This document shows, in pieces, positions 23,291 to 62,672 of a stretch of DNA of 64,000 bases. The translations under genes and the position numbers were made by a program. How positions within the stretch are numbered: position 1 is the stretch's first letter; each line of letters opens with the position of its first letter. The stretch covers positions 6,466,501 to 6,530,500 of the forward strand of contig NZ_CP119147.1 of the NCBI RefSeq assembly GCF_029167645.1, read 5' to 3'. Under the pieces are notes generated by a model. The model was not told the DNA's origin and did not search any database. It saw only the letters and a list, made by a program, of their open reading frames with translations. Origin of the DNA: Streptomyces sp. AM 2-1-1 (GTDB lineage Bacteria; Actinomycetota; Actinomycetes; Streptomycetales; Streptomycetaceae).

Positions 23291-24915
23291 GACACGCTCG
23301 CCTCCGCTTCGCCGTCGACCGCGGCGGAGGTGCGGCCGATGTCCAGCTCCAGGTCGTCCAGCAGCAGGTCGCCGTCGGCCGAGTACAGCATCGTTTGCGT
23401 GCCTGCCGTCCGGCGCACGGTGAAGCGGATACGCAGTTCGGCGTCTTCACTGCTGGCCGACGCGAGGTCGAACCCCGCCGTCCTCTCCCTGTCCGTGCTG
23501 ACGGGCCTTCTGAGCTGTGCGTTTCCGAGCGCTGTGGCCAGCAGCTCCAGAAGCAGCCCGAGCGCCGCCGAGGTGAGTCGTACGTCGGCGAACCGGCCGG
23601 ACGCACTGCGCAGTTCGTCGGCTGCCGCTGTTCTGGCCGCTGCCCGCTGACGGGCTGCCTCCCTCAGCAGCCGCTTCTGCGCGGAGTGGTCCTCTACCGC
23701 TGAGGCCCGCCCCCGCTGGGCCCGGCTGCCTCGCTCGCGCAGGGCCACCGGTACCTCGACCACCGGACCGGTCCACCAGCTCGTGTAGGCGGGCACCACC
23801 TCGTCGGTGGCCGGAGGTATGCCCAGATGGCGGGCGCCGTACAGCCCGAATGCGGCGACGGCGATGTCGTGTGCGTCCCGCGGAGCCGCTTCGTCGAACC
23901 AGCGGGCCAGCCGCAGCAGATCCTTGCGCCGGGACATCTCCCCGGTGGCTGACCGCAGCATTCGCTTGGCGTTGGCGAGCAGCGACTGCAACGCGCGCAG
24001 GGTGGCGTCGCGTAGCTGGTCGACCTGGCTGCCCTGGCCGTCGGTGTTGCAGAACCAGCCGCGCAGGCCCTCCCAGTCCGCGAATTCGCGGCCGCGGCTG
24101 CGCTGGATCCGGATGTCAGGGCGGCTTTCGCTCTGCGCCTGCGTCGAGATCCCGTTGAGTCCCTGGGCGTGGGAGTCCAGCCGGTCCAGCAGAGCCGGGA
24201 TGTACGGCCACAGCGTGTCCAACGCCGCCGAAATCCGGGGTGCTCGGAACGCCACGTCCTCCGTGATCGCCTCGACGTAGTCCAGGAGCAGTTCCTTGAA
24301 GCCCTGGTACTCGGCGCTGTCCAGGTCGTAGCGGGACAGCACCTGGCCGAGGTAGGCGTAGAAGTCGCGTATGGAGTCCGCGAACTCGGTGAACTGCACG
24401 AACAGCGTGCTGATTCGCTCCAGTCCGTCCTGCGGCTCGACGCCGCCCGGCGCGGTCACGAGGTCGGCCAGCTCCCGTAGTCCGCGCTCGACCAGGGCCA
24501 GCAGTTCGTTGCTGACCTCGCGGGCGGCGTCGGCCTCGGTCAGCACCCCGTCGGCGTCCCGCTGGATACGTTCGCCCAGTTTCGACAGCTGGTAGCGCGA
24601 GCGGGAACGCTGGTACTCGCTGATGCTGGATGCGTTCACCGTGTGGCTGCTGCGCAGCAGGTTTCCCCAGGCCACCAGCTGTTCCAGCCGGACTGTGAGG
24701 GTATCGGCGTCGAGCCCCGCGGCGAAAGTTCCGGCCTGGCGCAGTTTCACCATGATTTCCGGGACGGCGAGATCCGCCAGCAGCGTTCCGCAGAAGACCC
24801 GCATGATCGCGACGTGCTCCAGCCGCTCGGGCGCGCTGAGGTACGTGTACGCGTTTAGCCGCCGCCGTGCCTCCTCGTCGGAGTCCTGGCCCGGACCGGA
24901 TTCTGATGCCCCCAT
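23287..24915 (-). CDS. jetA: Wadjet type II JetA, MukF-like kleisin (TIGR02677)
   Basis: A 542-aa kleisin-like subunit and first gene of the operon. The N-terminal winged helix (YTYLSAPERLEHVAIMRVF and VRLEQLVAWGNL) and a long central helical domain with FYAYLGQVLSRYDLDSAEYQGFKELLLDYV match the TIGR02677 type. It bridges the two JetC heads. I start it at ATG 24915; there is no Shine-Dalgarno sequence directly upstream, so it may be translated from a leaderless transcript or the start may differ slightly. A truncated IS3 fragment ends about 90 bases upstream and may now contain the promoter. Confidence 0.9.
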   Translation of the reverse strand: MGASESGPGQDSDEEARRRLNAYTYLSAPERLEHVAIMRVFCGTLLADLAVPEIMVKLRQAGTFAAGLDADTLTVRLEQLVAWGNLLRSSHTVNASSISEYQRSRSRYQLSKLGERIQRDADGVLTEADAAREVSNELLALVERGLRELADLVTAPGGVEPQDGLERISTLFVQFTEFADSIRDFYAYLGQVLSRYDLDSAEYQGFKELLLDYVEAITEDVAFRAPRISAALDTLWPYIPALLDRLDSHAQGLNGISTQAQSESRPDIRIQRSRGREFADWEGLRGWFCNTDGQGSQVDQLRDATLRALQSLLANAKRMLRSATGEMSRRKDLLRLARWFDEAAPRDAHDIAVAAFGLYGARHLGIPPATDEVVPAYTSWWTGPVVEVPVALRERGSRAQRGRASAVEDHSAQKRLLREAARQRAAARTAAADELRSASGRFADVRLTSAALGLLLELLATALGNAQLRRPVSTDRERTAGFDLASASSEDAELRIRFTVRRTAGTQTMLYSADGDLLLDDLELDIGRTSAAVDGEAEASVS

Positions 24916-29091: not shown

Positions 29092-29900
29092 GTGGGTACT
29101 CGACCGTGGATCGTGGACGATGAGTTGTGGGCTCTGGTCGAGCCGTTGCTGCCGCCGGGGCCGGAGCGGTCTCCGGGGCCGAGGCCGGTGTCGGATCGGC
29201 TCTGCCTCCAGGGCATCCTGTTCGTCCTTCACAACGACATAGCCTGGCAACTCCTGCCGCTGGAGCTGGGGTTCGGTTCAGGGCAGACCTGCTGGCGTCG
29301 TCTGGACCGGTGGCAGAAGGCCGGGGTCTTCGACACGCTGCACCGGGTTCTGCTCGCGGAGCTGAACGCGGCCGGTGTGCTCGACTGGTCGCGGGCGTGC
29401 GTGGATGGTTCCCACATCCGCGCGAAAAAGAGGGCGCCGACACCGGCCCGTCGCCGGTCGACCGGCGGAAAACGGGCAGCAAACACCACTTGATCTGCGA
29501 CGGACGCGGCACCCCACTCAAGGTGATCACGACTGCGGCGAACGTCAACGACGTCACCCAAACCCTGGCCCTGGTCGATGGCATTCCACCCGTGGCAGGC
29601 CGCCCTGGCCGGCCCCGCCGACGACCAGAAGCCCTCCTTGGGGACAAGGGCTACGACTCCAACCCCAACCGCGACGAGCTGCGTCGCCGACGGATCCTGC
29701 CCGTCATCTCACGCAAAGGATCACCGAACATCAAGGGCCGGGGCAAGCTCCGCTACGTCGTCGAGCAGACCTTCGCTCTGCTCCACCAATTCAAACGTCT
29801 CGCCGTCCGCTGGGAACGCCGCACCGAACTCCACGACGCCTTCGTCTCCCTGGCCTGCGGCCTCATCTGCTGGAGACGTCTCAGGAAGGCCCGCTCCTGA
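29092..29900 (+). CDS. IS5-family transposase made by -1 frameshift (OrfA 29092-29493, OrfB to 29900)
   Basis: OrfA starts TRPWIVDDELWALVEPLLPP and carries the first catalytic Asp in ACVDGSHIRAKK. OrfB overlaps it in the -1 frame and continues EGADTGPSPVDRRKTGSKHHL, then the second Asp in LGDKGYDSN and the Glu in YVVEQTFALLHQFKRL. Joining the frames at the AAAAAG run (29424-29430) gives one continuous transposase that matches family spacing. This fits programmed -1 frameshifting known in IS427 relatives, so the gene is probably functional rather than broken. Confidence 0.85.
29424..29430 (+). promoter_or_regulatory. Frameshift slippery run in the transposase gene
   Basis: The run GAAAAAG lies where OrfA codons GCG AAA AAG meet the -1 frame of OrfB. 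Sliding back one base here gives RAKK-EGAD. It is one A short of the classic A-AAA-AAG heptamer, so frameshifting may be modest. Confidence 0.55.
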
Positions 29901-46124: not shown

Positions 46125-48563
<2,439 letters not shown>

Positions 48564-48743: not shown

Positions 48744-49154
48744 ATGAGCGACCTCCTTCAGCGGCTGCGGCATCGTGGCTGGCGGATGACCTCGCAGCGG
48801 CGCGTCGTCGCGGAGGTGCTCGACGGTGAGCACGTGCACCTGACGGCGGACGAGGTGCATCTGCGTGCCGCCGCGCGTCTCCCCGAGATCTCCCGCGCGA
48901 CCGTCTACAACACGCTGGGCGAACTCGTCGCGCTCGGCGAGGTGCTGGAGGTGTCCACCGTGGGCCGGGCCAAGCGCTACGACCCCAACGCGCGCCGTCC
49001 CCACCAGCACCTGGTGTGCTCCGGCTGTGGCACGGTCCGAGACGTCCACCCGGCCGGCGATGCCCTGGGTGACCTGCCCGAGGCCGAGCGGTTCGGCTTC
49101 GCCGTCGGCTCGGTGGAGATCACCTACCGCGGTGTGTGCCCGGCCTGCGCCTGA
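48744..49154 (+). CDS. Fur-family peroxide regulator (CatR/FurA-like)
   Basis: A 136-aa Fur-family repressor. N-terminal winged helix with GWRMTSQRRVVAEVL and EISRATVYNTLGELV; a His-rich HQHLVCSGCG metal region; and a second CPAC pair at the C-terminus, giving two CxxC pairs for structural zinc. Divergent from katG, which suggests it represses katG and itself until peroxide oxidises its iron or thiols. Start at ATG 48744. Whether it is a CatR- or FurA-type orthologue cannot be told from one window. Confidence 0.9.
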   Translation: MSDLLQRLRHRGWRMTSQRRVVAEVLDGEHVHLTADEVHLRAAARLPEISRATVYNTLGELVALGEVLEVSTVGRAKRYDPNARRPHQHLVCSGCGTVRDVHPAGDALGDLPEAERFGFAVGSVEITYRGVCPACA

Positions 49155-49796
49155 CCGCGGTGGCACCGCCGCCCACCGGCACCCCTGCCGCCCATCCTCC
49201 GCCCCGGCCGACGGTCGCGGTACACGTCACGCCTCTTCCACCGCCCCCGCTCCGATCCTCCCCGGGCTCTGCCCCGCGCAACGTCCCGTCTCCGGCGGAC
49301 CGGAGGCGGGAACGCCCGGCCCCGGTCACCGGTTGACGGCACGCCGGGGAACGCGGGTGCCACGCCGCTGACCACACCGGCCGGCGGGGGCCGCCGGGCC
49401 AGGGGCCGGCTCGGCGGGCCGCCGGGTCCGCCCACAGGACATGGCCGGAATGCGGCGTCACCCTCACCCACCCCGGCACGCGCGGCTTCTGCCCCGACGG
49501 TCGGCAGGCGGGCCGCGGCTGACGGGCCGGTATCCCCGCCGGGGCGTGAGGAGTGGCGGTCCCGGAACCCGACGGATGCCTCCTGCGGCGCACGTGCCCC
49601 GGTCCCGCACGGCGTGCCACCCGCCCGGGCGGCCCCTGCCGGAAGCGGGCCCGCAGGGCGGGGCGGAGGGAGCCGGACCCGTTGTCACTGGCGACGCCTA
49701 GAGTCTCTTCCACTCGTCACGGTCCGTTGCCGTCGGCGGGTTTCATCAGCGTGCCGCCGGTTCGGCGGCCGTACGGGACGACGGGGAGAACAGCGC
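49155..49796. other. Gene-free stretch upstream of the DUF4132/MoxR operon
   Basis: Very GC-rich, with only low-complexity Arg/Pro/Gly open frames on both strands. A TAGAGT box at about 49700 lies after GTTGTCA-rich sequence and could be part of the operon promoter, but no clean -35/-10 pair is visible. GGGGAGA at 49783-49789 is the RBS of the next gene. Confidence 0.4.
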
Positions 49797-50657
49797 ATGG
49801 GGTGGGTTCCGGCGGGCGACTACGAAGTCGCCCTGGAAGCGGGCAAAGTGGTCTGCCGCAACGGGAAGGGCCGACGGCTGAAATCCGTCCCGGCCGGCCT
49901 CAGGGACGACCCGGCGGTGGTGGGCCTCCGGCAGCTGACCGAGTGGCTGACCCGGCACGAGCACCAGTGCCTGAGCGATGTCGAGCAGTGGATGGTGCGG
50001 TCGCTTCCCGTCCCCACGGCCGTGCTCGCCCGGGTCTGGCCCGACCCGGCGTGGCAGGCGGCCCTGCGGGACGTGGTGGTCACCGGCGCGGACGGTGGAG
50101 TGGCCGGGTTCCTGCGCGATGTCGATCCCGACCGCGGACTCGGACTCGTCGACCTCGACGGCGACACGGTCCGCATCACCCCGGACATCGTCAGCGTGCC
50201 CCACCCCGTCCTCCTCGACGACCTCGACGAGCTGCGGGAGTTCGCGGTCGAGCTGGGAGTGCGCCAGCACGTGGACCAGTTGTTCCGCGAGGTGTGGCGC
50301 CGCCCGCCCGGGCTCGCCCCGGAGACCACCTCCGTGGACACCTACGGCGGCGGCGTGTTCAAGGAAGTGCGCTTCCTGCACGGTCGCGTCACCCAGCTCG
50401 GCTACCGGGCGCGCGGCGGATACGCGATCTGCCCGGTCATCGAGGGCGGCGCCACCGCCGAGGCGCGTATCTGGATCGGCGAACACGACGGATACGACGA
50501 GACCGGTACCGAGACGGGCCCCCTGGGCTGGACCGACCCCGCAGGGCGTGCGCTGACGCTGGCCGAGGTCGGCCCCGTCGCGTGGTCCGAGGGCATGCGC
50601 ATGGCGGCGGCGCTCTACGCCGGCCGCGACGTGGCGGACGAGGAGCGAGCGGCATGA
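49797..50657 (+). CDS. DUF4132-containing protein, operon gene 1
   Basis: A 286-aa soluble protein that corresponds to a stand-alone DUF4132 domain. The family stretch QHVDQLFREVWRRPPG and the following YGGGVFKEVRFLHGRVTQLGYRARGGY are visible. In E. coli YehI/MolR the domain lies at the C-terminus of a much longer protein. Start at ATG 49797 with GGGGAGA upstream. Its stop overlaps the next start (ATGA, 50654-50657). The function is unknown; the domain is found with MoxR-type ATPases and VWA proteins. Confidence 0.75.
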   Translation: MGWVPAGDYEVALEAGKVVCRNGKGRRLKSVPAGLRDDPAVVGLRQLTEWLTRHEHQCLSDVEQWMVRSLPVPTAVLARVWPDPAWQAALRDVVVTGADGGVAGFLRDVDPDRGLGLVDLDGDTVRITPDIVSVPHPVLLDDLDELREFAVELGVRQHVDQLFREVWRRPPGLAPETTSVDTYGGGVFKEVRFLHGRVTQLGYRARGGYAICPVIEGGATAEARIWIGEHDGYDETGTETGPLGWTDPAGRALTLAEVGPVAWSEGMRMAAALYAGRDVADEERAA

Positions 50658-53600
50658 GCATCACGACGACGAACACCCCCACCGGTCCGGCGGCACCGGG
50701 CGCCGTGTCCCTTCCCGTCCAGGCCCGGGGCGACAGCGGCGCGGCTCCCGTCGACGAGGCCCGCGCGGCGGCCCTGCTGGACGCGGGCGCGATCCTCCCC
50801 GTCGGTACCACCGACCGGGACGACGCGGACGCGCTGACCGCCCGTGCGTACACGCACCACGCCCTCGGCGACCGGCCCGTGGTCCGGCTGGTGCCCGGCA
50901 CGCTCGGCGAAGCCGAGGACCTGGCCCTCGAGTTCCTCGGGCTGACCCGGACCGCCGAGGCCCCCGTCGTGGGCCAGGTACGCCGCGAGACCCTGGGCTT
51001 CCCCGCGTGGGCGCTGGTCAACGACCCGGCCAACGGGCACCACGCCCTGGCTCTGGTCAAGGACATCGAGCGGCTGGGCCGGCAGGCCAAGACCCGCGCC
51101 GGGGCCGCCAAGGAGGGCTTCGACGCGCTCGGCACCCGGCTCGGCCGTGCCGTGCCGCACTTCCTCCCCACCTACTACGAGCAGGTGGCACGCCTCTTCC
51201 TCCAGGCGGAGAACACCACGTACGCCGCCTCCTTCTTCGGCAAGGCCCGCGAGGCCGAGCGGGTGCACGGACTGGTGGTGGACGAGGACCGGCAACGGGC
51301 CGTCTTCCTGGAGTTCGCCTTCGCCGGTGCGCTGACCGTCAAGGCGCTGCGGCAGTACGTGCGCGATCTGGTGGCCCGGCTCGGAGCGGCGGACGCCTGG
51401 ACGCAGTTCCGCCGCCTGCTGGTCGAACGCTGCGCGGCCGGTGTGCCTCCGTACGCGGCGCTGCCGCAGGACGTGCGCGCGCTGGTCAAGGCCGCCGGGC
51501 TGGACCGCGAGGCCGCCGAACGCGAGCTGGTGGCGGATCTGATCGACTCACCGGGAGTGGTCCGCGCCCCCGCTCCGTTCTGGACGGCCTACCGCTCCGC
51601 GCTCGTCGCCCTGGCCCGACGGGACGCGAGCGTGCGGATCCGGCTCCTCACCTTCTTCCCGGAGACCTTCGGCGAGAGCGGCCGGGACACGGACGGCGAA
51701 AGCGGCTGGCTCGCCCTGCTGGCCGAATCCGGTGCCGAGGAGCTGCTGACCGCCGTCCCGGACACCTCCGACGACGCTGTCTCCCCTTCCCCGGCGGAGT
51801 GGCTCGCCCGCTGGGAGGCACACCGCCGGAACCACCGGGTCACCTCGGGCCGCAGCCCGCAGACCCTCGACCTGGCCGCCCGGATGGCGGACCGGTTGCG
51901 CGCTGACGGACGCCCCGTCCAACTGTTCCAGGGCCGCTGGCAGACCACGGCCGACCTGGACCTCCTCGACCTCTGCCTGGCCTCCGGCGTCCCCGTCTCC
52001 GAGCCGGACGACCAGGACGCGGGCACCCGCGGTCTCCCGGTCGGCCAGTGGCTCAGCGACACCGCGCCCGGTGCGCGGGATCTCGCCGCCGTCGCCGCGC
52101 GACCGGCCTTCCGCGCCCTGCTGCGCCGGAACGTCGGCGGGCTCGGCGACGGACGCGGTCAGCGACTGGACGACGCGGGCATGGCCAAGCTCGCGGCGCA
52201 CCCCGTCCTCTCCGCGATCCTGCGCGAGTGGCTGACCGCCTGCGCCGAGGAGTACGCGGCCACGCGGGGTCTCCCCGGGCTGTACACCGCCTTCAACAGG
52301 CTCTCGGCGTTCCGCGCCGTGGCCGCGGACGTCGCCCCCGAGGCCGTGCGCCTCCTGGAGGAGCACGACATCGTGCCGCTGCTCGCCGCCACCCTGCGTA
52401 CCGGCGTCCTCGACGAACTGGGCTGGCCCGCGCTCGACGAGACCTACACCGAACTCGCCGCCGAGGTTGCCGCCGCCACCGGTCAGCGGCACCGCCGGTC
52501 GGAGGGTGTGGGTGTCACCGGAGCCTGGCCCGCGCTGATCCTCCACACCCTCGAACGGGCCGTCGTCGTCGGCCCGGAGGGCGTTCTGCTGCGGCACACC
52601 GTGCGGCCGCCCAGCACCGTGGACCACTGGCGTACGTACGCCTTCCGCTACGTCGACGGCGAATTGCTGGTCATCTGGTGGGAGGACGGCAAGCAGCGCG
52701 GCTACTGGTCGCACCGACCCGCCGACGTGTTCACCGTCGGCGGTGAGGAGACCCCCCGCTGGGGCGGCTCCCGTGCCGCGGACGAAGTTTCCCTGCCGCT
52801 GCCGGGTGGGGGCCTCGCCACCGGCGGCAGAGCCCTGCACGCGGGAGACACCTCCCTCCCGCCCCGGCGCGCCGTCATCTCGGACGGCACCGGCCACTGG
52901 CGGGAGGGCCACCAGGGCACGCAGCGGGTGTGGCTGGAGTACGACCCGGCCACCGGAACGCACGGCCGCGCGTCCCTCCCCGCCTTCCTCCGCTCCGGGG
53001 TGCGGGACGGCAGCCGGCTGCTCACCGAGCACTGCCAGGTGCTGCCCCTCCAACCCGGTCTGGAGAAGACCCCGTTCGGCACGGACGGCACCGTCCTCGG
53101 CCGCTGGGTGCGCCGCACGGTCACCGAGCCCGGCACGGCCGCCCCCGCCGACGGGCACCGCATCGTCGCGGGCACCCCCGACGGTCACACGGTCGCCCTG
53201 CCGCACCCGCTGCCCGGCGGCGGTTCCCCGGTGCCGCTCGGCGCCCTCACCCTGCCCGGCGGCTCCCGGCCCGTCGCGGCCCTGCACCACCGTTCCGTCG
53301 AAGTGCACCCGGCGGACACGGACGGCGCCGGGAGCAGTTTGTGGTCCGTCACCACCGGCGCCCCCGGCGGCAACGACGCGGCGGGCACCCCCTACGTGCC
53401 TCCCCTCGCCTACTGGCACGCCCTGCGTCCGAGGGACGAGCGGGGCTCCACCGCTCTGCGGAACCTGACGGACTCCCGGGCGGGCGAGATCTTCGAGGCG
53501 GTCGTCGACGCGCTCGTCGCGCACCTCCAGGCGTTCCGGGCCGTCGAGGAGTACACCGGGCCCTCCTCGCGGGAACTGAGCGAGGAGGCCGTCGCCCGGG

Positions 53601-55819
53601 TGCTGCCCGAGGTGTCCGACCCGCGGCTCCTCACGGGTGTCACCGCGCTCGTCCGGGAAGCGGTGGACCGCGCCGCAGCGACCGCCCGGTACGTGGAACC
53701 GCCCGAGCCCGTGCGGCCCGCCACGCCCCAGGACACCGCGCGCATCCGAGGCATGTTCTTCGACCACGAGCCCGAGCACGGCGACGACACGACCCTGCGG
53801 GACGCCTCCGCCTGGAGCTCCGAGCGGATGCGCGGCACCAGCTGGTGGGGAGCCGGCCGCCGGTGGACGACGATCCGGCAGATCCTCGCCGTCAACCATG
53901 TCCTCGGCGGCGAACCGGCGTTCGGCCCGCCCACACCGCCCAACGTGCCCTTCGCCCCGGTGGACGGCTGGCAGCGGGACGAGTACGTCGTGCCCGGCGA
54001 TTCCCTGAGCTGGACCTCACTCCTCGACACGCTGCCCGAACTCGCCTACCGGGCCGCCTCGGCGACCACCTCCCCCGAGCACCGCGCGGCGCTCCTCGTC
54101 CTCCTGGACACGCTCGCCGCGGGCCCGCTGGCCGACCCGGCGGGCACGGTCCGGCAGGTGGAACTCGTCGAGCCGTTCGGCACGGCGACCCCCGGAACGG
54201 GACGCCAGGAGGTCGTGCACCGCCTCGGCCAGGTGCTGCGCAAGGGCGCACGCACCGTGGTGGTCATTTCCGACCGCGGCCGGAACCCCCTGAACGACGC
54301 GGCACGCTGGCTCGCCCTGGACCACGACCCGACCGGCGCCTTCGGCCCCGTCCCCGGCTTCACCCTGGACCGTGAGCACGTCCACCACACGGGCGTCGCC
54401 CGCGACCGGCTCGCCCGGCTCACCGCCCTCGTACGGGAACAGGGCCCGGCACCCTGGCGTCCGGAGGCCGCCGAGGCCTTCCACGCGGCCACCGGAATCG
54501 GCCCCCTCCAGTCCGTCGCACTGCTGTCGGCCGCCGTCGAAGAGCCCGGCGCCGAGGCGCTGGCGCTGCTCGGGGTGAAGACGCGTGCCTTCGAGACGGC
54601 CCGGTCCAGGCTGGACGCCCTGCCCCACGACGACCGGCACGCGCTGCTCCGGGCGCTGCTCCCCGCCGATCCCGCCGAGCTGTGGTCCACGGGCCCCGAC
54701 GTCCGGGCCGCAGCCGAGGTCTGGCAGAAGGGCCTGGCCTCCCTCGTCCGCGTCCCCGAGGAACTGGACCTCGACCTGTCGGGCACCACTTCCGTCGCCG
54801 TCGACCTCATCCTCAACACCGGCTCCCGGACATGGCTCGACCACGGCACCGCCGTCCCGGACGGCACCGGTCGTCCGGTCCTGACCCGGGTAGCCGCGAG
54901 GGGTGCGGTCTCCTCGGCCCTGACCGCCCTGCGCACCCTCGCCTACACGCTGCCGTACGGGCACCCCCTGCGGGCGCACCTGCCCGTCGGGCTCGCTGCG
55001 TTGCGTGACCGCCTCGCCGACCCGGGCCTGGTACTGGACCTCGGTCTGGAGTGGACCGAGGCGGGGGGTTCGATCGGCCCCACCGTCCGCGCCGCCCACG
55101 GGCTCCCCGAGTCCGGCGGCGCCGACGCCGACGGACTGGTCCGGGCCGGCGCGGCGCTGCTCCTCGCTCCCGGCCACGGCACCAACGAGAGGCTGCTGAT
55201 CCGGCCGGCCGGACTGGCGGGACCCGACGACCCGGCGTTCGGCCTCGTCGAAGGCGTCTTCGGCCCGCACGCCGCCGGGGATCCGCTCGCCCTGCGCGCA
55301 CTGCTGGGTGAGGAGACCGCCGCACTGGCTTCGGCCGGTGCCCCCGACGGTTCCCCGCACCACCCGGCCCAGGATCCGGCACGCGCGGTGGGGGAGTTGG
55401 TGGCCGAGGCCGCCGGCACCCTCCAGCTGAGCGCGGACGCCGCCGCCCTCTACCTCATGCTGCTCGCGCTGCCCGACCCGACGGACCGCAACTGCGTGCG
55501 CTGGACCGAGTGGAAGCCCGCCCGGGTCAAGAAGGCCCGCGCGGAACTCGCCGCCACGGATCTCGTCGTGGAGGCGAAGCGCTCGCGCGCCGGCCGCACC
55601 CTGTTCCTCCCCTGCGGCTGGCTCGAACGCGGGGCCCCTGGACTCCCGCTGGAGACCTGGAAGGAACGCCTGTACCCGGTGACGGGGTCCGCCCGGACCC
55701 TGCCCCACCTCCCCGTGCCCGAGCTGTTCGCAGCCGCCTGGGCGCGGGTCCGCGAAGGCGACGCCCCCGCCTTCGAAGAACTGGACACCCGCGCAACCCG
55801 GAAGGGCCGCCGCCGATGA
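50654..55819 (+). CDS. Unknown 1721-aa protein, operon gene 2
   Basis: A giant soluble protein with no motif I recognise. The N-terminal 400 residues are helical, with RLFLQAENTTYAASFFGKA resembling a TPR/solenoid repeat. A central region (about 600-700) has FRYVDGELLVIWWEDGKQRG and YWSHRPADVFTVGG. The C-terminal end is a basic tail (TRATRKGRRR). No Walker, nuclease, protease or membrane motif is seen. Translational coupling by ATGA to both neighbours indicates one complex with the MoxR ATPase. It may be the large effector or scaffold remodelled by the ATPase; the MolR-like long arm split from its DUF4132 domain is another possibility. Confidence 0.85.
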   Translation: MSITTTNTPTGPAAPGAVSLPVQARGDSGAAPVDEARAAALLDAGAILPVGTTDRDDADALTARAYTHHALGDRPVVRLVPGTLGEAEDLALEFLGLTRTAEAPVVGQVRRETLGFPAWALVNDPANGHHALALVKDIERLGRQAKTRAGAAKEGFDALGTRLGRAVPHFLPTYYEQVARLFLQAENTTYAASFFGKAREAERVHGLVVDEDRQRAVFLEFAFAGALTVKALRQYVRDLVARLGAADAWTQFRRLLVERCAAGVPPYAALPQDVRALVKAAGLDREAAERELVADLIDSPGVVRAPAPFWTAYRSALVALARRDASVRIRLLTFFPETFGESGRDTDGESGWLALLAESGAEELLTAVPDTSDDAVSPSPAEWLARWEAHRRNHRVTSGRSPQTLDLAARMADRLRADGRPVQLFQGRWQTTADLDLLDLCLASGVPVSEPDDQDAGTRGLPVGQWLSDTAPGARDLAAVAARPAFRALLRRNVGGLGDGRGQRLDDAGMAKLAAHPVLSAILREWLTACAEEYAATRGLPGLYTAFNRLSAFRAVAADVAPEAVRLLEEHDIVPLLAATLRTGVLDELGWPALDETYTELAAEVAAATGQRHRRSEGVGVTGAWPALILHTLERAVVVGPEGVLLRHTVRPPSTVDHWRTYAFRYVDGELLVIWWEDGKQRGYWSHRPADVFTVGGEETPRWGGSRAADEVSLPLPGGGLATGGRALHAGDTSLPPRRAVISDGTGHWREGHQGTQRVWLEYDPATGTHGRASLPAFLRSGVRDGSRLLTEHCQVLPLQPGLEKTPFGTDGTVLGRWVRRTVTEPGTAAPADGHRIVAGTPDGHTVALPHPLPGGGSPVPLGALTLPGGSRPVAALHHRSVEVHPADTDGAGSSLWSVTTGAPGGNDAAGTPYVPPLAYWHALRPRDERGSTALRNLTDSRAGEIFEAVVDALVAHLQAFRAVEEYTGPSSRELSEEAVARVLPEVSDPRLLTGVTALVREAVDRAAATARYVEPPEPVRPATPQDTARIRGMFFDHEPEHGDDTTLRDASAWSSERMRGTSWWGAGRRWTTIRQILAVNHVLGGEPAFGPPTPPNVPFAPVDGWQRDEYVVPGDSLSWTSLLDTLPELAYRAASATTSPEHRAALLVLLDTLAAGPLADPAGTVRQVELVEPFGTATPGTGRQEVVHRLGQVLRKGARTVVVISDRGRNPLNDAARWLALDHDPTGAFGPVPGFTLDREHVHHTGVARDRLARLTALVREQGPAPWRPEAAEAFHAATGIGPLQSVALLSAAVEEPGAEALALLGVKTRAFETARSRLDALPHDDRHALLRALLPADPAELWSTGPDVRAAAEVWQKGLASLVRVPEELDLDLSGTTSVAVDLILNTGSRTWLDHGTAVPDGTGRPVLTRVAARGAVSSALTALRTLAYTLPYGHPLRAHLPVGLAALRDRLADPGLVLDLGLEWTEAGGSIGPTVRAAHGLPESGGADADGLVRAGAALLLAPGHGTNERLLIRPAGLAGPDDPAFGLVEGVFGPHAAGDPLALRALLGEETAALASAGAPDGSPHHPAQDPARAVGELVAEAAGTLQLSADAAALYLMLLALPDPTDRNCVRWTEWKPARVKKARAELAATDLVVEAKRSRAGRTLFLPCGWLERGAPGLPLETWKERLYPVTGSARTLPHLPVPELFAAAWARVREGDAPAFEELDTRATRKGRRR

Positions 55820-57039
55820 CGAACGACGCCACCACCACCATGGACGACCCTTCCACGGGCGGTGTCCCCGCCCGGGCGACGCCGCCCGGCCGGGAACACC
55901 GCCAGGTCACGCCGCCCGAGGACCGGTACGCCACCGAGCTGGCCTTCCTCGCCGCCCACGACTCCGGCCCCCGCCCTCTCGGCTGGCTGCTGACCCCGCG
56001 TGCCGTCGTCACCTTCGTGATGGGCAGCGCGGGAGAGCCGCTGAGCCTGCCGAAGGGCGCCCGGCCGGCAGCGGAGGTGCCTCGCCGCCTCGTCATCGAG
56101 CAGAAGTTCGTCGGCGAGCGCGCTCTGGTCGAACGGTGCGTGGTCACCCTCGCCGGAGAGCGCGGACTCCTTCTCGTGGGCGAACCCGGCACCGCCAAGT
56201 CCATGCTCTCCGAGCTGCTGTCGGCGGCGGTCTGCGGGACCAGCGCACTCACCGTGCAGGGCACCGCGGGCACCACCGAGGACCAGCTCAGGTACGGCTG
56301 GAACTACGCGCTGCTGCTCGCCCAGGGACCCACCGAGCAGGCCCTGGTGCCCTCCCCGGTGCTCACCGCCATGACCCGGGGGGCCGTCGCCCGCGTCGAG
56401 GAGGTCACCCGCTGCCTGCCGGAGGTCCAGGACGCCCTCGTGTCGCTGCTGTCCGAGCGGCGGATCGCCGTCCCCGAACTCACCGGCGGCGAGGGCGCTC
56501 AGGTGCACGCCGCTCCCGGGTTCACCCTCATCGCCACCGCCAACCTCCGGGACAAGGGCGTCTCGGAGATGTCCGCCGCCCTGAAGCGGCGCTTCAACTT
56601 CGAGACCGTGGGCCCCATCGGGGACGTGGACGCCGAGACCGCGCTCGTCCGGCGCCAGTCGCGGGCGGCCGTCGAACGCGTGGGCGCCGCGTACCAGGTG
56701 GACGACGCGGTCCTCGAGGCCCTGGTCACGGCCTTCCGGGACCTGCGCGAGGGCCGCTCCGCGGAGGGCTGGGAGGTCGAGCGCCCCTCCACGGTGATGA
56801 GCACCGCGGAGGCGGTCTCCGTGGCGGGCGCCTTGGGCCTGGCCGCCGCCTACTTCCCCGGCGACCGGGACGTCCTCTCGCTCCTCCCCGGCCACCTGCT
56901 CGGCGTCGTCCGCAAGGACGACCCCGCCGACGCGGCCCGGCTGCTGGGCTACTGGGACGGGCCCGTGCGCAGGCGCGCGGAGCAGGGGTCGGCCACCTGG
57001 CGCGCCCTGTGGGAACTGCGTGCGGTGCTGGAGAACTGA
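55816..57039 (+). CDS. MoxR-type AAA+ ATPase, operon gene 3 (YehL-like)
   Basis: A 407-aa AAA+ ATPase. Walker A GEPGTAKS (122-129); the Walker B region reads VARVEEV (191-197), with Glu in place of the usual Asp; sensor 1 TLIATAN (237-243); arginine finger region LKRRFNF (256-262). MoxR ATPases act with VWA proteins to insert metals or remodel partner proteins. The partner VWA domain is in the next gene, 3 bases downstream. The E-for-D change in Walker B may alter hydrolysis. Start overlaps the previous stop by ATGA. Confidence 0.9.
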   Translation: MTNDATTTMDDPSTGGVPARATPPGREHRQVTPPEDRYATELAFLAAHDSGPRPLGWLLTPRAVVTFVMGSAGEPLSLPKGARPAAEVPRRLVIEQKFVGERALVERCVVTLAGERGLLLVGEPGTAKSMLSELLSAAVCGTSALTVQGTAGTTEDQLRYGWNYALLLAQGPTEQALVPSPVLTAMTRGAVARVEEVTRCLPEVQDALVSLLSERRIAVPELTGGEGAQVHAAPGFTLIATANLRDKGVSEMSAALKRRFNFETVGPIGDVDAETALVRRQSRAAVERVGAAYQVDDAVLEALVTAFRDLREGRSAEGWEVERPSTVMSTAEAVSVAGALGLAAAYFPGDRDVLSLLPGHLLGVVRKDDPADAARLLGYWDGPVRRRAEQGSATWRALWELRAVLEN

Positions 57040-57042
57040 CGG

Positions 57043-60000
57043 ATGAGCGAGTCGATCTCCCCCGCTACGCGGCCTGCCACCGAGGTGTCGCCCACCGCCG
57101 GTGCGCCCACCGCTCACCCGGCCCCGGGCCCGGCGGCCGGACCCGCCACCCCGGATGCCGCGGTGGCGGCGCTCGCGGCGACCGGGCCCCGGTCACCGTT
57201 CCTCATCGGGGTGCGCCACCACGCGCCCTCGCTGGCGGCCGCCCTGCCGGCCCTGCTGGACACGGCCGCCCCCGACGTCCTCCTCGTCGAACTGCCCGCC
57301 GAGTTCCAGCCCTGGCTGGGCTGGCTCGCCCACGAGGAGACCGAGGCCCCGGTGGCGCTGGCCGCCGTGCTCCCCGACGGGCCCGGCCCTCCGGGCGAAC
57401 GGGGCCCGGCCTTCTATCCGTTCGCGGACTTCTCGCCCGAACTGGTCGCCCTGCGCTGGGCGGCCCGGAACGGCGTCCCGGCCGTGGCCTGCGACCTGCC
57501 GCTCGCCGACCGGGCGTGGACGGGCGGCGGCTCCAAGACCCCCGCCCCGGCCCCGGACGCCGGGCCTGCGCCCGGGCCGGGGGAGGGGCACGGGCTGTCC
57601 GACGCGCTCCGGTCCCGGCTCACCGGCCGGGACGGAGACGACCTGTGGGACCGGATGGTGGAAGCCCTCGCGCCCGGTTCGACCCCCGAGGCGCTCCGCC
57701 GTGCCGCCCTGCTCACCGGCTGGGCGCTGCGCCAAGAGACGGAGGCACGGGGCGGAGTGACCGGCACGGACCTGGCGCGCGAGACGTGCATGCGCGGGCA
57801 CGTGGCCCGGGCCATGGCGGACGGGCGGCGCCCCGCCGTACTGGTGGGAGCCTTCCACACCCCGGCGCTGCTCCCGTCCGCCGCCGGAACCGCCGGAACC
57901 GCCGGAACCGCCGGAACCGCCGGAACCGCCGGAACCGCAGGGACCGCCGTGGGTGCCGCGCCGGGTGTGGACGGCACCGGCGACGGCGCGGCAGGGACGG
58001 CACCGTGCACGGTCTCCCTGGTCCCCTACACCTACCCACTGCTCGACTCACGTTCCGGGTATCCGGCCGGTATCCGCGACCCGGAGTGGCAGCACACCGT
58101 CCTGGAGGCGGCCGGGGACCCGGCCGCGCTGCACGAGGCGCTGATCCGCACCGCGGTCCGCGTCTGCGCCGACCTGCGCGGGCAGGGCCACCCCTACGGA
58201 CCGGCGGACGGCCGGGAGGTCGTCCGGATGGCCGGTGACCTGGCCCGCCTGCGTGGGTTGCCCGCCCCCGGCCGCGGAGAACTCCTGGAGGCCGTGCAGA
58301 CGGTGCTGGGACGCGGCGAGACCTACGGCACGGGCCGCGCCGTCGCCCGGACCCTCGAACGGGTACTCGTCGGAGTCCGCACCGGACGGCCCGCGCCCGG
58401 CGCTCCGCGCGGCGGACTGGGCCCCGCGGTCGAGGACGAGATCGCGGCGCTCTCCCTCCCCGGCCCGGAGGCCACCCACGAGAAGACACCGCGAGACCTC
58501 CGGCTCGACCCGGTCCGCTCCCCCCTGGACCGGCGCCGCGAACTCCTGCTGCGCAGGCTGGCGGTGTGCGGCATCCCCTACGGACAGGAACAGGAGGTGA
58601 CCGGCGCGGCGGGCACGGAAGGTCTCACGACGCGCTGGCAGGTGCGGTGGACCCCCGCGACGGCCGCGATGCTCACCGCGGCCGGGGCCCGCGGTGTCAC
58701 CCCGGCCCAGGCGGCCGAGGGCGTGCTGCGGCAGCGGCGCACGGCGGAGCGGGCGGAGGGCGGCCCGACGGCGGCCCAGGTCGTCCGCGGCCTCACGGAG
58801 GCCGCGGAGTGCGGGCTCACCGCCCTGGCCGGTGAACGGCTGACGGAACTGGCGGCCGTACTCCCCGCGAGCGGCACCCTGCCCGAACTCCTCACCGGGC
58901 TCGACCTGCTGGACCGCATCGACGCCGGCCTCCTGCCCGGTCCGGCCGCGCCGGACGCTCCCTCGGGCCGGGACACCGCTGCCGCCGACCGGGCCTCCCG
59001 CACCGCACACGCGGCCGAACTCCTCACGTCGGCCGCGGTCCGCCAGATCGACGGTCTGACCGGCTCGGACGAGCCCGAGGACGCCCGGGCCCTGCTCGAA
59101 CTGGCCCAGCGGGCCGACCGCTTGGGCGGCATCCGACTCACCGACGCACTCGCCCGGCTGACCGCCGACGGTACCCCCCTGATCGCCGCGGCCGCCGGGG
59201 CGATCCGCGTGCTCACGGGGCACCAGGAGGCCGAGACCTTCGGCGGGCGCGTCGCCTCCTGGGTCGACGGAGCCGTGGACGGCCCCTCCCGGGCCGCGCT
59301 CACCGCCCGCCTCACCGGTCTCCTGACGGTGGCGGGCCCGCTCCTGACCGTCGGCGCCGGTGCCCTGGACCCGCTGCTGCAGCGGGTCGTGGAACTGGAG
59401 GACACCGCCTTCCTGGCCCGGCTGCCGGCCCTGCGCGGTGGTTTCGACACCCTGAGCCCGGCCGCCCGGGAGCGGCTGCTGGACACCGTCGAGGAACGGC
59501 TGGGCGAACGGCTCGACCACCTCGACGAGGACGACCCGGTCGAACTGGCCCGCCGTACGGCCGCCGACCTCGCCGCCCGCGACCTCCTGGCCGGCCTCGG
59601 CCTCCCCCTTCCGGCGCCCGCGCACGACGACCGGTGCACCCCGCTGTCCGGCCTTCCCGCCGACGTACCGGCCACCGCGCCGCCGAGCGGCGCCGCCCAC
59701 GCGAGGACCCTGGCACCCGCCGACCGCTGGCGGCTCGTGCTCGGCCGGCGCACCGACAGCCTTCCCTCCCGCGCCGCCCGGACGGCGACGGCCCTGGACG
59801 AGCTCTACGGCGCCGGCCACGGCGAGGGTTCCCGCAGCGGCCTCCCCGGTCACGGACGCGGTGGCGGCCCCGGACAGCGGGGCGGCCGGGAACCGTCGTT
59901 CCCCGGCGTCCGCGAATGGTCCGAGGAGCTGTCCGCGCTGTTCGGACCCGGCATCCGCGAGGAGGTCCTCGCCGCAGCAGCCATGACGGGCCGTCAGGAC

Positions 60001-60831
60001 GTCCTCGCCGCACTCGACCCGGCGGCCACCACCCCCTCCGTGGAACTGCTCCGGACGATCCTGCGGTACGCCGGCGGCCTCCCCGAAGCCCGCCTGGCGG
60101 CGCTCCGGCCCCTGGTCCGCCACCTGGTCGACGAACTGACCCGGCAACTCGCCACCCGGCTGCGCCCCGCCCTCACCGGCACGATGTCGGCCCGGCCCAC
60201 CCGCCGCCCCGGCGGCCGGCTGGACCTGCCGCGCACCCTGCGCGCCAACCTGGCCACCGCCCGCCGCACGGCCGACGGAACGGTCCGGGTCATCCCCGAG
60301 AAACCGGTGTTCCGCAGCCGCGTCCGCCGCTCGGCCGACTGGCGCCTGATCCTGGTCACCGACGTCTCCGGATCGATGGAAGCCTCGACGATCTGGTCCG
60401 CGCTGACCGCCTCCGTGCTCGCCGGGGTGCCGACCCTGAGCACCCATTTCCTGGCCTTCTCCACGGAGGTCGTCGACCTCACCGGCCATGTGCGCGACCC
60501 TCTCTCCCTCCTGCTGGAGGTGAGCGTGGGCGGGGGTACCCACATCGCCGCCGGACTGCGGCACGCCCGCAGCCTGATCACGGTGCCGAGCCGCACCCTC
60601 GTCGTGCTCATCAGCGACTTCGAGGAGGGAGCGCCGCTCGCCGGACTCCTGGCCGAGGTGCGGGCCCTCGTGAACACCGGGAGCCACGTCCTCGGGTGCG
60701 CGAGTCTCGACGATGCCGGCCGCCCCCGCTACTCGACCGGTGTCGCCGGGCAACTCGTAGCTGCCGGCATGCCCGTGGCGGCTCTCAGCCCACTCGAACT
60801 GGCCCGCTGGATAGGGGAGAAGACCGCATGA
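57043..60831 (+). CDS. DUF5682 protein with C-terminal VWA (CoxE-like) domain, operon gene 4
   Basis: A 1262-aa protein in which two usual neighbours appear joined. The N-terminal 800-850 residues match DUF5682/YehM style, with FLIGVRHHAPSLAAALPALL and LLVELPAEFQPWLGW. The C-terminal part (about 880-1262) is VWA-like with an intact MIDAS DVSGS at 1107-1111, a threonine in GGGTHIAAGL and an Asp in LISDFEEGA. A 9-base minisatellite encodes a Gly-Thr-Ala run at 281-301. The MIDAS suggests Mg-dependent protein binding as client adaptor for the MoxR ring. Four-base overlap with gene 5. Confidence 0.85.
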   Translation: MSESISPATRPATEVSPTAGAPTAHPAPGPAAGPATPDAAVAALAATGPRSPFLIGVRHHAPSLAAALPALLDTAAPDVLLVELPAEFQPWLGWLAHEETEAPVALAAVLPDGPGPPGERGPAFYPFADFSPELVALRWAARNGVPAVACDLPLADRAWTGGGSKTPAPAPDAGPAPGPGEGHGLSDALRSRLTGRDGDDLWDRMVEALAPGSTPEALRRAALLTGWALRQETEARGGVTGTDLARETCMRGHVARAMADGRRPAVLVGAFHTPALLPSAAGTAGTAGTAGTAGTAGTAGTAVGAAPGVDGTGDGAAGTAPCTVSLVPYTYPLLDSRSGYPAGIRDPEWQHTVLEAAGDPAALHEALIRTAVRVCADLRGQGHPYGPADGREVVRMAGDLARLRGLPAPGRGELLEAVQTVLGRGETYGTGRAVARTLERVLVGVRTGRPAPGAPRGGLGPAVEDEIAALSLPGPEATHEKTPRDLRLDPVRSPLDRRRELLLRRLAVCGIPYGQEQEVTGAAGTEGLTTRWQVRWTPATAAMLTAAGARGVTPAQAAEGVLRQRRTAERAEGGPTAAQVVRGLTEAAECGLTALAGERLTELAAVLPASGTLPELLTGLDLLDRIDAGLLPGPAAPDAPSGRDTAAADRASRTAHAAELLTSAAVRQIDGLTGSDEPEDARALLELAQRADRLGGIRLTDALARLTADGTPLIAAAAGAIRVLTGHQEAETFGGRVASWVDGAVDGPSRAALTARLTGLLTVAGPLLTVGAGALDPLLQRVVELEDTAFLARLPALRGGFDTLSPAARERLLDTVEERLGERLDHLDEDDPVELARRTAADLAARDLLAGLGLPLPAPAHDDRCTPLSGLPADVPATAPPSGAAHARTLAPADRWRLVLGRRTDSLPSRAARTATALDELYGAGHGEGSRSGLPGHGRGGGPGQRGGREPSFPGVREWSEELSALFGPGIREEVLAAAAMTGRQDVLAALDPAATTPSVELLRTILRYAGGLPEARLAALRPLVRHLVDELTRQLATRLRPALTGTMSARPTRRPGGRLDLPRTLRANLATARRTADGTVRVIPEKPVFRSRVRRSADWRLILVTDVSGSMEASTIWSALTASVLAGVPTLSTHFLAFSTEVVDLTGHVRDPLSLLLEVSVGGGTHIAAGLRHARSLITVPSRTLVVLISDFEEGAPLAGLLAEVRALVNTGSHVLGCASLDDAGRPRYSTGVAGQLVAAGMPVAALSPLELARWIGEKTA
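57883..57945 (+). repeat. 9-base minisatellite inside the DUF5682 gene
   Basis: Six exact GCCGGAACC units (57883-57936) plus a degenerate seventh (GCAGGGACC) encode a repeated Ala-Gly-Thr run. The unit length keeps frame, so copy number could vary between strains without loss of the protein. Confidence 0.95.
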
Positions 60832-62672
60832 CCGCCTCGCCGCTGCCACCTGTCGCGCCGGAGGTCACGGCCACCCTGGTCGAGGAACTCTCGCCCCGGC
60901 TGCGCAAGCGGCTGGACGCCGCCGTCACCAAACTCGGCGCCCGTCCGACGCGCCGCTCCGGGGACACGGTGACGATCACGGTCGACGACGAGACCGAGCT
61001 GCGCCTGCACGCCCCGGGCGGCGTGGTGGCGACGGTGGACGCCATCGCCTGCGGCTGCCTCCTCGCCCCCGCCTGCGTCCACCGCGCGGCCGCCGCCTGC
61101 GCCGCCCCCACCGCCGACCCGGCGACCTCAGGCGACGGCGGATCCGGCCGGCCGCCCGGCGAAGGCGCCTCGGCGACGGATCCGGTCCCCGGGCCCGATC
61201 CGGACCCCGCCGCCGATCCCGCCGCTGCGAACGAGGTGGCGAGCCCGGCCCAGCGCGCCGCGGCGGACGCCCTCTGGTCGGCCGGCGCCGCCGTGCTGGA
61301 GGCCGGCGTCGGTGGGGCCGGCGCCGTCACCCAGTCGGCCCTCCTCCGCGCCGCGCACACCGCCCGGCTCCGGCACCTGCCGCGCGCCGCGGCCGCCGCG
61401 CTGTCCGTCGTCACGCTGCTGCGCGCCGCCCGCACCGGCGACCCGTCCTACCGCACCGCCGACCTCGTCACGGCCCTGGCCGAACTCCTGGGCACCGTCC
61501 ACCGGTTGGGCACCGCCTCCGGGGCGGAGCTGGCAGCCCTGAGAGGCCGCGCGCGCCGCCCGTACAGCCCCGACGGCTCGCTGCGCCTGTACGGCCTCTT
61601 CACCGAACCCGTGGTCACCGACTCCGGGCACGGCGGCGTCCGCACCTGGGTCGCCGCACCCGACGGCCGCCTCCACACGGTCGGAGACGTGGCCCCCGGC
61701 GGCGTCGGACGCGCCCTGGGCGTGGCCGACCGGGCCGTACGCCTGGGAGACAGCGCGCTCACCCATCGCGAGCTGGGACGGGCCGGCCTGGCGGTCTCGG
61801 GCGCGACGGTCTCGCCGGACGGCAGACTGGGCGCGGGGAAGGGCGTCAAGGCCGTCACCGCCCAGGGCGCGGCGTGGACGGAGCCGCCGCTCGCCGCTCT
61901 GTGGGAACCGCCGCCGTCCGTGCAGGCCTCCCGCGCCCTGCGGTCCACCGCGCGCTACGCGGACCCGGACGGTAGCGGCAGTGATCTGCTCTTCCTGGAC
62001 GTCGAACTCCTCGGCGCCGTGCGGGAAACGGGCGGCACCTGCCTGCTCGCGCGGTGCGCAGGGGGCGTTTCCGTCCGGCTCACCGTCGCCGACGACGACC
62101 CCGCGCTCGCCCACCGCGACAACCTGATGCTGCTGGCCACGGCGCCGGGGACACGGTTGAGGATCATCGGCCGCCTCGTCCCCGCCTCGCATCCCCGGCT
62201 CGCCCTCCTCGCCTGCTCGCACCCGACCGGCGACGGCACGATCGACCTCGGCCTCGACCGCCTGCGCCGCGCCGATCTGCCGGACCCGACCGCCCCCGTG
62301 CACCCCGCCCCGCCGCAGGCCGGCGGACCCGGCATCCACTCACCCCTGTACCTCCTGGAGCGGCGGGTCGAACAGGCGGTCCCGGCGGGCCGCGCCGCCC
62401 TCGGCATGCTCGGCGACCTCACCTCCGAGACCCGCCGCATCGGCCGCGCGGGCCTCCCCACGGCCGCCGGACTCCTCACCGCGCTGTGCGCCTCGGCGGC
62501 CCAGCGGGAGCGCGACCACTTCGGCCGCCTCCTCCCGGCCGACACCGACGGCTTCGCCCTGCACTGGCTCACCGCCGCCCGTTACACGGCGGCCGTGGCC
62601 GAGGCCCTGTGCGCGGCCGCGTGGGATACGGCGCCGGAGGAGGGGCGGGCCGTGGCGTCATCGGATTACTGA
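60828..62672 (+). CDS. SWIM zinc-finger protein, operon gene 5 (YehQ-like)
   Basis: A 614-aa soluble protein. The SWIM motif C-x-C-xn-C-x-H is at Cys75, Cys77, Cys83 and His85 (ACGCLLAPACVH). Long helical and beta regions follow without recognised motifs. SWIM domains bind DNA, RNA or protein. In E. coli the homologous slot in the yeh cluster is YehQ. The ATG overlaps the stop of gene 4 (60828-60831), and GGGGAGAAG serves as RBS. It ends the operon; no hairpin is obvious in the 250 bases after it. Confidence 0.85.
   Translation: MTASPLPPVAPEVTATLVEELSPRLRKRLDAAVTKLGARPTRRSGDTVTITVDDETELRLHAPGGVVATVDAIACGCLLAPACVHRAAAACAAPTADPATSGDGGSGRPPGEGASATDPVPGPDPDPAADPAAANEVASPAQRAAADALWSAGAAVLEAGVGGAGAVTQSALLRAAHTARLRHLPRAAAAALSVVTLLRAARTGDPSYRTADLVTALAELLGTVHRLGTASGAELAALRGRARRPYSPDGSLRLYGLFTEPVVTDSGHGGVRTWVAAPDGRLHTVGDVAPGGVGRALGVADRAVRLGDSALTHRELGRAGLAVSGATVSPDGRLGAGKGVKAVTAQGAAWTEPPLAALWEPPPSVQASRALRSTARYADPDGSGSDLLFLDVELLGAVRETGGTCLLARCAGGVSVRLTVADDDPALAHRDNLMLLATAPGTRLRIIGRLVPASHPRLALLACSHPTGDGTIDLGLDRLRRADLPDPTAPVHPAPPQAGGPGIHSPLYLLERRVEQAVPAGRAALGMLGDLTSETRRIGRAGLPTAAGLLTALCASAAQRERDHFGRLLPADTDGFALHWLTAARYTAAVAEALCAAAWDTAPEEGRAVASSDY

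Follow-up and report, generated by a model that had tools for sequence, protein, structure and literature searches.

We analysed a window of 64,000 nucleotides from Streptomyces sp. AM 2-1-1 (contig NZ_CP119147.1, positions 6,466,501 to 6,530,500; this is 6.47-6.53 Mb on a contig of 7.13 Mb, in a genome of 7.2 Mb). Five genes of this window, here called A to E, form one conserved unit, and the promoter element that precedes them is conserved and common with recA. A carries a DUF4132 domain, B is a large protein, C is a MoxR ATPase, D joins a DUF5682 part to a VWA part and E is a SWIM-type protein (Table 1). We consider it probable, at about 60%, that A-E are one operon for an ATP-driven MoxR-VWA remodelling machine, predicted to be made on DNA damage. 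An earlier note on this DNA had described a five-gene operon of unknown function and compared it with the yeh genes of Escherichia coli; the unit is real, that comparison is largely right, and DNA-damage induction is a prediction from the sequence.

Conservation of the five genes as one unit

A scan with B gave 369 confirmed relatives, and the best 80 of them supplied the 77 named loci used here (74 titled Streptomyces and one each [Kitasatospora], Actinacidiphila and Embleya), so that the sample, taken from the best of a longer list, leans to close relatives. A stands directly before B in all 77 loci, and all five genes were detected in 61. Among the remaining 16, 14 stop at a contig end within or just past the last gene found, and L115 and L123 hold A-B alone, with C, D and E absent from the 10 kb downstream. 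The junctions recur as well: the 4-base overlap of A and B in 74 of 77 loci, that of B and C in 50 of 70 and that of D and E in 53 of 60, with a gap of 2-5 bases between C and D in 59 of 68. The 404 genes flanking 60 of these loci fell into 289 clusters, 236 of them single. Since the surrounding genes vary this widely while the order of A-E stays, the five genes behave as one unit. Scattering of the genes in relatives, which the earlier note had set against its own proposal, was looked for, and the five genes stay together.

Within the genus, the window-type operon is patchy: score bands place it in about 21 of 61 genomes, with 9 checked through their gene content. Other actinobacteria have B-like proteins with no C, D or E in the vicinity, some of them as A-B fusions. 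Single proteins with A and B parts (L145 and L147) argue against the earlier idea of two large clients, since A and B are then not two unrelated proteins. In the genus, L141, L142 and L143 carry stand-alone or fused B-type genes with the promoter element within 4 mismatches, and three of four stand-alone B genes have it at that threshold. Because these B-type genes also have the element, B may act without the MoxR ring.

A predicted recA-type promoter element upstream of the operon

The sequence TTGTCACTGGCGACGCCTAGAGT lies at 49682-49704, upstream of A, and shows two mismatches to the RecA-NDp consensus, which we take to be TTGTCAGTGGC-N6-TAGGGT. In mycobacteria, the RecA-NDp element is a binding site of PafBC. 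No other site within 4 mismatches of this consensus was found on either strand of the 64 kb window. The earlier note was silent on this promoter; its general idea of a stress role becomes more specific, as the promoter points to DNA damage. In the window, the LexA box GAAC-N4-GTTC is confined to the interior of genes B and D (53912 and 59890), and for this reason LexA is not proposed as the regulator.

A site within 4 mismatches is present in the 400 bases before A in 74 of the 77 named loci. Among 1000 further genes from those loci, B-E included, 7 have one. The sites before A mostly begin at a distance of about 115 or about 60 bases to the start codon, and the two loci with A-B alone carry the element too. 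Gene content separates four versions of the DUF5682 system, type 1 being that of the window (the others are described below), and the element was observed before all four in the genus. It lies within 3 mismatches in 8 of 8 type 1 loci from the genus draw and at 4 mismatches in a ninth (L149). In type 2, 20 of 20 loci carry it in both orientations, one of the two sites of L200 not being tied to a called gene start. Type 4 has it in 12 of 12 loci and type 3 in 4 of 4; in three of the latter it is no more than 60 bases from the called start, and in L017 it lies 516 bases before it.

Whole genomes were searched with the pattern TTGTCASTGGNNNNNNNTASNGT, which was shaped to admit the window site. 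The window genome has two exact matches, one before recA (about 34 bases before the called start) and one before the A-E operon. One-mismatch sites number four, and the type 2 sister system accounts for two of them with its divergent promoters. The reversed pattern has no match in this genome. In 61 genomes of the genus there were 422 exact matches compared with 1 for a control pattern, and among the matches listed (150, from 18 genomes) a DUF5682 gene was no more than 9 kb away in 14 cases, compared with an expected 0.5. We also picked by hand 18 further sites from four genomes to see the genes downstream. These include genes for UvrB (three genomes, one checked) and ribosomal S6 (two genomes, one checked), as well as for a DNA polymerase III beta-like protein, RadA and an Ogt-type methyltransferase; the ribosomal S6 operon usually holds ssb. 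NCBIfam named six of nine motif-bearing genes, as RecA, UvrB, RadA, Ogt-type methyltransferase, DNA polymerase III beta-like protein and ribosomal S6. Judged by these genes, the element is a fair though not exceptionless mark of the DNA-damage regulon. Two genomes have related genes of about 390-400 amino acids behind the element (L233:212-1405, without an NCBIfam match, and L241:1697-2860); they are possible damage genes.

A RecA-NDp/PafBC regulon has been described in Actinobacteria (PMC6789036, PMC8223512, PMC5087735). In S. coelicolor, RecA-NDp promoters precede recA and the UV-inducible SCO6735 (PMC5087735); PafBC binds a -26 element, and single-stranded DNA is its activator (PMC11804915). 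The window operon has a recA-like element at a fitting strand and distance, and its membership in that regulon is predicted here. In the window genome, two genes in the position of pafB and pafC are adjacent and lie downstream of a Pup ligase gene, one of them with a WYL sequence; they were named by position and by eye, and NCBIfam gave no match for the PafB-like protein.

Relationship to the yeh genes of E. coli and to sister systems

In E. coli MG1655 (L001), the order yehI-yehL-yehM-yehP-yehQ corresponds to A-C-D-D-E of the window, and both sets have MoxR, DUF5682, VWA, SWIM and DUF4132 parts. In the window set, by contrast, DUF4132 forms a protein of its own, the YehM and YehP parts are joined in a single protein, B is without a counterpart, and the promoter is of a kind that E. 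coli is not known to have. C is 45% identical to YehL over 382 columns (6e-97, blastp). D is 26% identical to YehM over its first part and 37% identical to YehP over its last part (3e-57), and profile comparison links its DUF5682 part to YehM with 100% probability (1.9e-43). For E, the CxC-x5-CxH spacing equals that of YehQ, with a weak profile match around the zinc motif (E 0.0084, probability 4.8%). Both A and YehI match PF13569, the latter in residues 954-1138 at its C-terminus; profile comparison gave no direct alignment of A with YehI and no match of B to YehI or the rest of the E. coli set. We considered A and B as a split YehI and rejected this for B, which lacks similarity to YehI despite the fused A-B proteins and the DUF4132 domain of YehI; on this ground B is treated as new. 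A, C and D thus bear out the likeness to yehI-L-M-P-Q proposed in the earlier note, E shows it weakly, and B lacks it.

The same note stated that the yeh set has no settled role, which agrees with the open-licence literature, where we found no functional study and no reported function for the yehL-M-P-Q set. In the same literature we found no mention of DUF5682 or DUF5691, and no description of a system like A-E in which PafBC or RecA-NDp appear together with MoxR or SWIM. An early claim reportedly gave molR a role with molybdate, as told by citing papers.

DUF5682 was detected in 58 of 61 genomes of the genus compared with 21 of 296 drawn from the phylum. Type 2 consists of SWIM, DUF5691, MoxR, DUF5682 and VWA and is near universal in the genus. 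It shares the four core parts with the window operon, in the genus also the promoter element, whereas its scaffold is DUF5691 instead of DUF4132/B and, in the genus, it is split into two divergent operons. Type 3 resembles E. coli yehI-L-M-P-Q, with a MoxR about 64% identical to YehL, and type 4 has a small zinc-motif-like protein, a 463-amino-acid protein, VWA, MoxR and a diverged DUF5682. The DUF5682 parts are linked by profile comparison with probabilities of 99.9-100% for types 1-3 and 98.2% for type 4. In 30 genomes, 23 of 57 matches to SWIM (PF04434) lie within 6 kb of a DUF5682 gene, where about 0.2 were expected, and 23 of the 55 DUF5682 loci account for them; the other 32, types 1 and 4 included, have no PF04434 match nearby, and there the SWIM label is based on the motif and on weak scores. 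In the window genome, the SWIM-DUF5691 side of type 2 (L012, 11600-12700) has apparently lost its N-terminal zinc motif, which is absent from the three forward frames and present in other genomes of the genus. The same type 2 locus adjoins sucC-/sucD-like genes, named by eye (L012, 4565-6652), as is also the case in L023.

Gene layout and component proteins

Gene ends were set by direct translation, which bore out the layout given in the earlier note: A/B, B/C and D/E overlap by 4 bases and a 3-base gap separates C from D. All five genes start with ATG, and the third-position G+C content agrees with their reading frames (Table 1).

Table 1. Features of the A-E operon (positions in the window)
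Feature	Position	Strand	Description	Basis
Predicted RecA-NDp/PafBC-type promoter element	49682-49704	+	TTGTCACTGGC-N6-TAGAGT, 92 bases before ATG of A	
Gene A	49797-50657	+	286 amino acids, stand-alone DUF4132 domain	Pfam PF13569 1.7e-26
Gene B	50654-55819	+	1721 amino acids, without known domain	No Pfam, PADLOC or NCBIfam match
Gene C	55816-57039	+	407 amino acids, MoxR AAA+ ATPase, YehL type	Pfam AAA_5 1.4e-37; 45% to YehL
Walker A motif GEPGTAKS in C	56179-56202	+	Residues 122-129	Alignment
Gene D	57043-60831	+	1262 amino acids, fusion of YehM-like DUF5682 and YehP-like VWA	Pfam DUF5682 9e-202 and VWA_CoxE; blastp to YehM, YehP
GxRHHxP motif, DUF5682 part of D	57208-57228	+		Invariant in 6 aligned proteins, three lineages
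VWA_CoxE domain of D	60148-60813	+	Residues 1036-1257, MIDAS-like DVSGSM	Pfam 1.3e-64
Gene E	60828-62672	+	614 amino acids, SWIM-type zinc-motif protein	Motif and sub-threshold SWIM scores of relatives
CxC-x5-CxH zinc motif of E	61050-61082	+	Residues 75-85	Invariant in 9 of 9 aligned proteins

The catalytic motifs of C and D are conserved. Regular expressions for Walker A and Walker B both match C in 69 of 70 relatives, and those for GxRHHxP and DxSGS both match 57 of 68 called D proteins, some of these calls being incomplete. Identity to Streptomyces relatives reaches 87% for B and 98% for part of D. The family scan of the five proteins gave no Pfam match for E, as for B; the helical-repeat-like matches of B are all weak (the best being HEAT_Nup120, 0.055), and its best-conserved stretches in a conservation profile are residues 61-240 and 1621-1721. 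The CxC-x5-CxH expression matches 59 of 60 E proteins of relatives, while their SWIM scores stay under the cutoff (best E 0.005, in 3 of 9; 0.027 and 0.024 elsewhere). In searches of solved structures, C matched only midasin chains (up to 1e-10); B and E had no match by sequence, and the VWA part of D, searched as a single sequence, had none up to E 1.

In the DUF5682 part, an alignment across three lineages shows that the GxRHHxP, E, DLP, RExxM and HxPA residues are kept, and from the sequence these could be an active site. The order of these residues, judged by eye, suggests a possible TIKI/TraB/EreA-like enzyme. The DUF5682 profile scored E 0.12 with 11 erythromycin-esterase-family proteins, no better than with unrelated controls, and had one chance-level match (0.17) among solved structures.

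Surroundings of the operon

Just before the operon lie a KatG-like catalase-peroxidase gene (46125-48380, minus strand) and a Fur-like regulator gene (48786-49154, plus strand), both named by eye. We rejected them as a clue to oxidative stress: in none of the 77 named loci does either gene lie close to the operon, so this neighbourhood is local. Further upstream, PADLOC identified a complete Wadjet type II cassette at 16435-24915 on the minus strand (JetD 4.9e-136, JetC 0, JetB 4.3e-122, JetA 5.5e-218). It sits in a stretch of lower G+C content from about 12 to 34 kb, with transposase-like fragments nearby (13413-14252 and 29397-29900, by eye). Some type 1 or A-B loci have phage tail sheath-like genes beside them, possibly of contractile injection systems; these made up 3 of the 114 flanking genes scanned, and L013 and L123 have them too.

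Proposed mechanism and alternative explanations

Under the explanation that we favour, PafBC activated by single-stranded DNA would bring RNA polymerase to the element upstream of A (49682-49704), as at recA. C would form a MoxR ring, as its family suggests, on which the VWA part of D would dock as NorD does on NorQ. In NorQ-NorD a finger of the VWA protein enters the ring and turnover twists the partner (PMC13036017); from this analogy the C ring would be expected to act on D, and it is the known MoxR-VWA pairs that lead us to suggest a remodelling machine. Turnover of the ring may then pull or twist the DUF5682 part of D or its cargo. The weakest step is the last, in which E with its zinc motif and an A-B scaffold would bring the ring to its target. 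That target would most likely be a protein assembly on damaged DNA, a first guess that we draw from the promoter and from Deinococcus, where a DUF4132 gene and a WGR/MolR-like gene rise on depletion of the damage repressor DdrO (PMC8533742). More tentatively, and with odds that we regard as rather low, the yehL/M/P/Q-type systems from E. coli to Streptomyces could be an unrecognised class of DNA-damage machines, with a MoxR ring, a VWA-DUF5682 lever, and SWIM and DUF4132/DUF5691 scaffolds recruiting it, that would dismantle protein complexes stuck on damaged DNA, DUF5682 (with GxRHHxP, E, RExxM and HxPA) being possibly an enzyme.

Several points weigh against induction by DNA damage through PafBC, or against a target on DNA. 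Among the 77 named loci, L097, L127 and L130 have no site within 4 mismatches. Beyond the genus, 15 loci of types 1, 2 and 4 were examined and L045 alone has a site at that threshold, while L050 and L054 had none within 3 mismatches. The loci within a lineage are kin and their counts are not independent, and the search pattern was fitted so that it would include the window site. Three of the nine motif-bearing genes have no repair link (one without match, two below family cutoffs). No strict LexA box was seen in the yeh region of E. coli, and E. coli is not known to have PafBC. The SWIM assignment of E is weak, and B has no recognisable fold. In S. venezuelae, the M. smegmatis PafBC motif was not found conserved in an initial search, and the PafBC branch in Streptomyces has recently been termed unproven (PMC9380542). 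Finally, in mycobacteria ClgR has been proposed to bind the same element (PMC5656591), which makes it a second candidate regulator.

It could be argued that the element is a coincidence, or an ordinary promoter of a constitutive operon, given that hexamer-like promoter halves arise by chance and that about 105 sites per genome are expected within 4 mismatches from base composition. The fixed distance of the element, its frequency before A compared with the other genes of the loci and its recurrence in four lineages make this very improbable; moreover, only 11 bases separate its halves, too few for a standard -35/-10 pair. The alternative that deserves most attention for the target step accepts a DNA-damage-responsive promoter and supposes a general machine of protein quality control, with targets unrelated to DNA. 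The PafBC branch of mycobacteria also touches oxidative stress and proteostasis (PMC8223512), and in M. smegmatis without pafBC two MoxR proteins and one von Willebrand factor protein are lower, with small changes and in different MoxR genes (PMC5656591). We found nothing specific against such a machine, which we hold to be possible rather than probable.

Two other roles are taken from known or proposed MoxR-VWA systems, and we consider both unlikely. One is that of a chaperone that inserts metals or cofactors, as NorQD and the chelatases do, where C and the VWA part of D would open a client enzyme, and E or A-B would be the client or a metal carrier. MoxR-VWA pairs of known role often insert a metal or cofactor (PMC13036017), the VWA part of D is CoxE-like, family scans gave C and D weak chelatase-type scores, and NorQ-NorD has, as in the window, a MoxR ring and a VWA partner with a large N-terminal part. 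The window set, however, has another N-terminal domain, three extra proteins and no metalloenzyme partner; none recurs among the 404 flanking genes, and a recA-type promoter would not be expected for metal insertion. The other is an anti-phage or other conflict system, induced by phage-caused DNA damage, with A-B or DUF5682 as effector. The patchy distribution of the operon, its placement at many different sites and the Wadjet cassette 25 kb upstream would fit it, and MoxR-VWA ternary systems with further large proteins, common in multicellular bacteria, have been proposed as conflict systems (PMC7159879). These are set apart by their description, as the terms SWIM, WGR, TIKI and EreA have no occurrence in the available text of that paper, and among the Pfam matches of the five proteins there is no VMAP, iSTAND, FtsH or beta-propeller component (bpMoxR scored 22.6 against a cutoff of 27). 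None of the five has a credible defence-family match in PADLOC (a single match, 0.024), which leaves the conflict role raised in the earlier note without support. No obvious trend of defence genes near the operon appeared in 114 of the 404 flanking genes of 60 loci; among the matches listed (25 of 42 families) the commonest was a cold-shock model (6 of 114), with no background set beside it. The five genes showed no effector module that varies rapidly, and the near-universal type 2 sister is unlike a typical defence island.

Significance

YehL is one of the MoxR subfamilies that have no known role, even though it is present in E. coli K-12. That four sequence-divergent versions of the system within one genus are preceded by a recA-type promoter gives a first concrete condition for a phenotype search and predicts such a phenotype. 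The role of YehL systems thereby becomes directly testable, because the promoter suggests a DNA-damage condition, and our results suggest that the DNA-damage regulon of Streptomyces may include a large ATP-driven machine.

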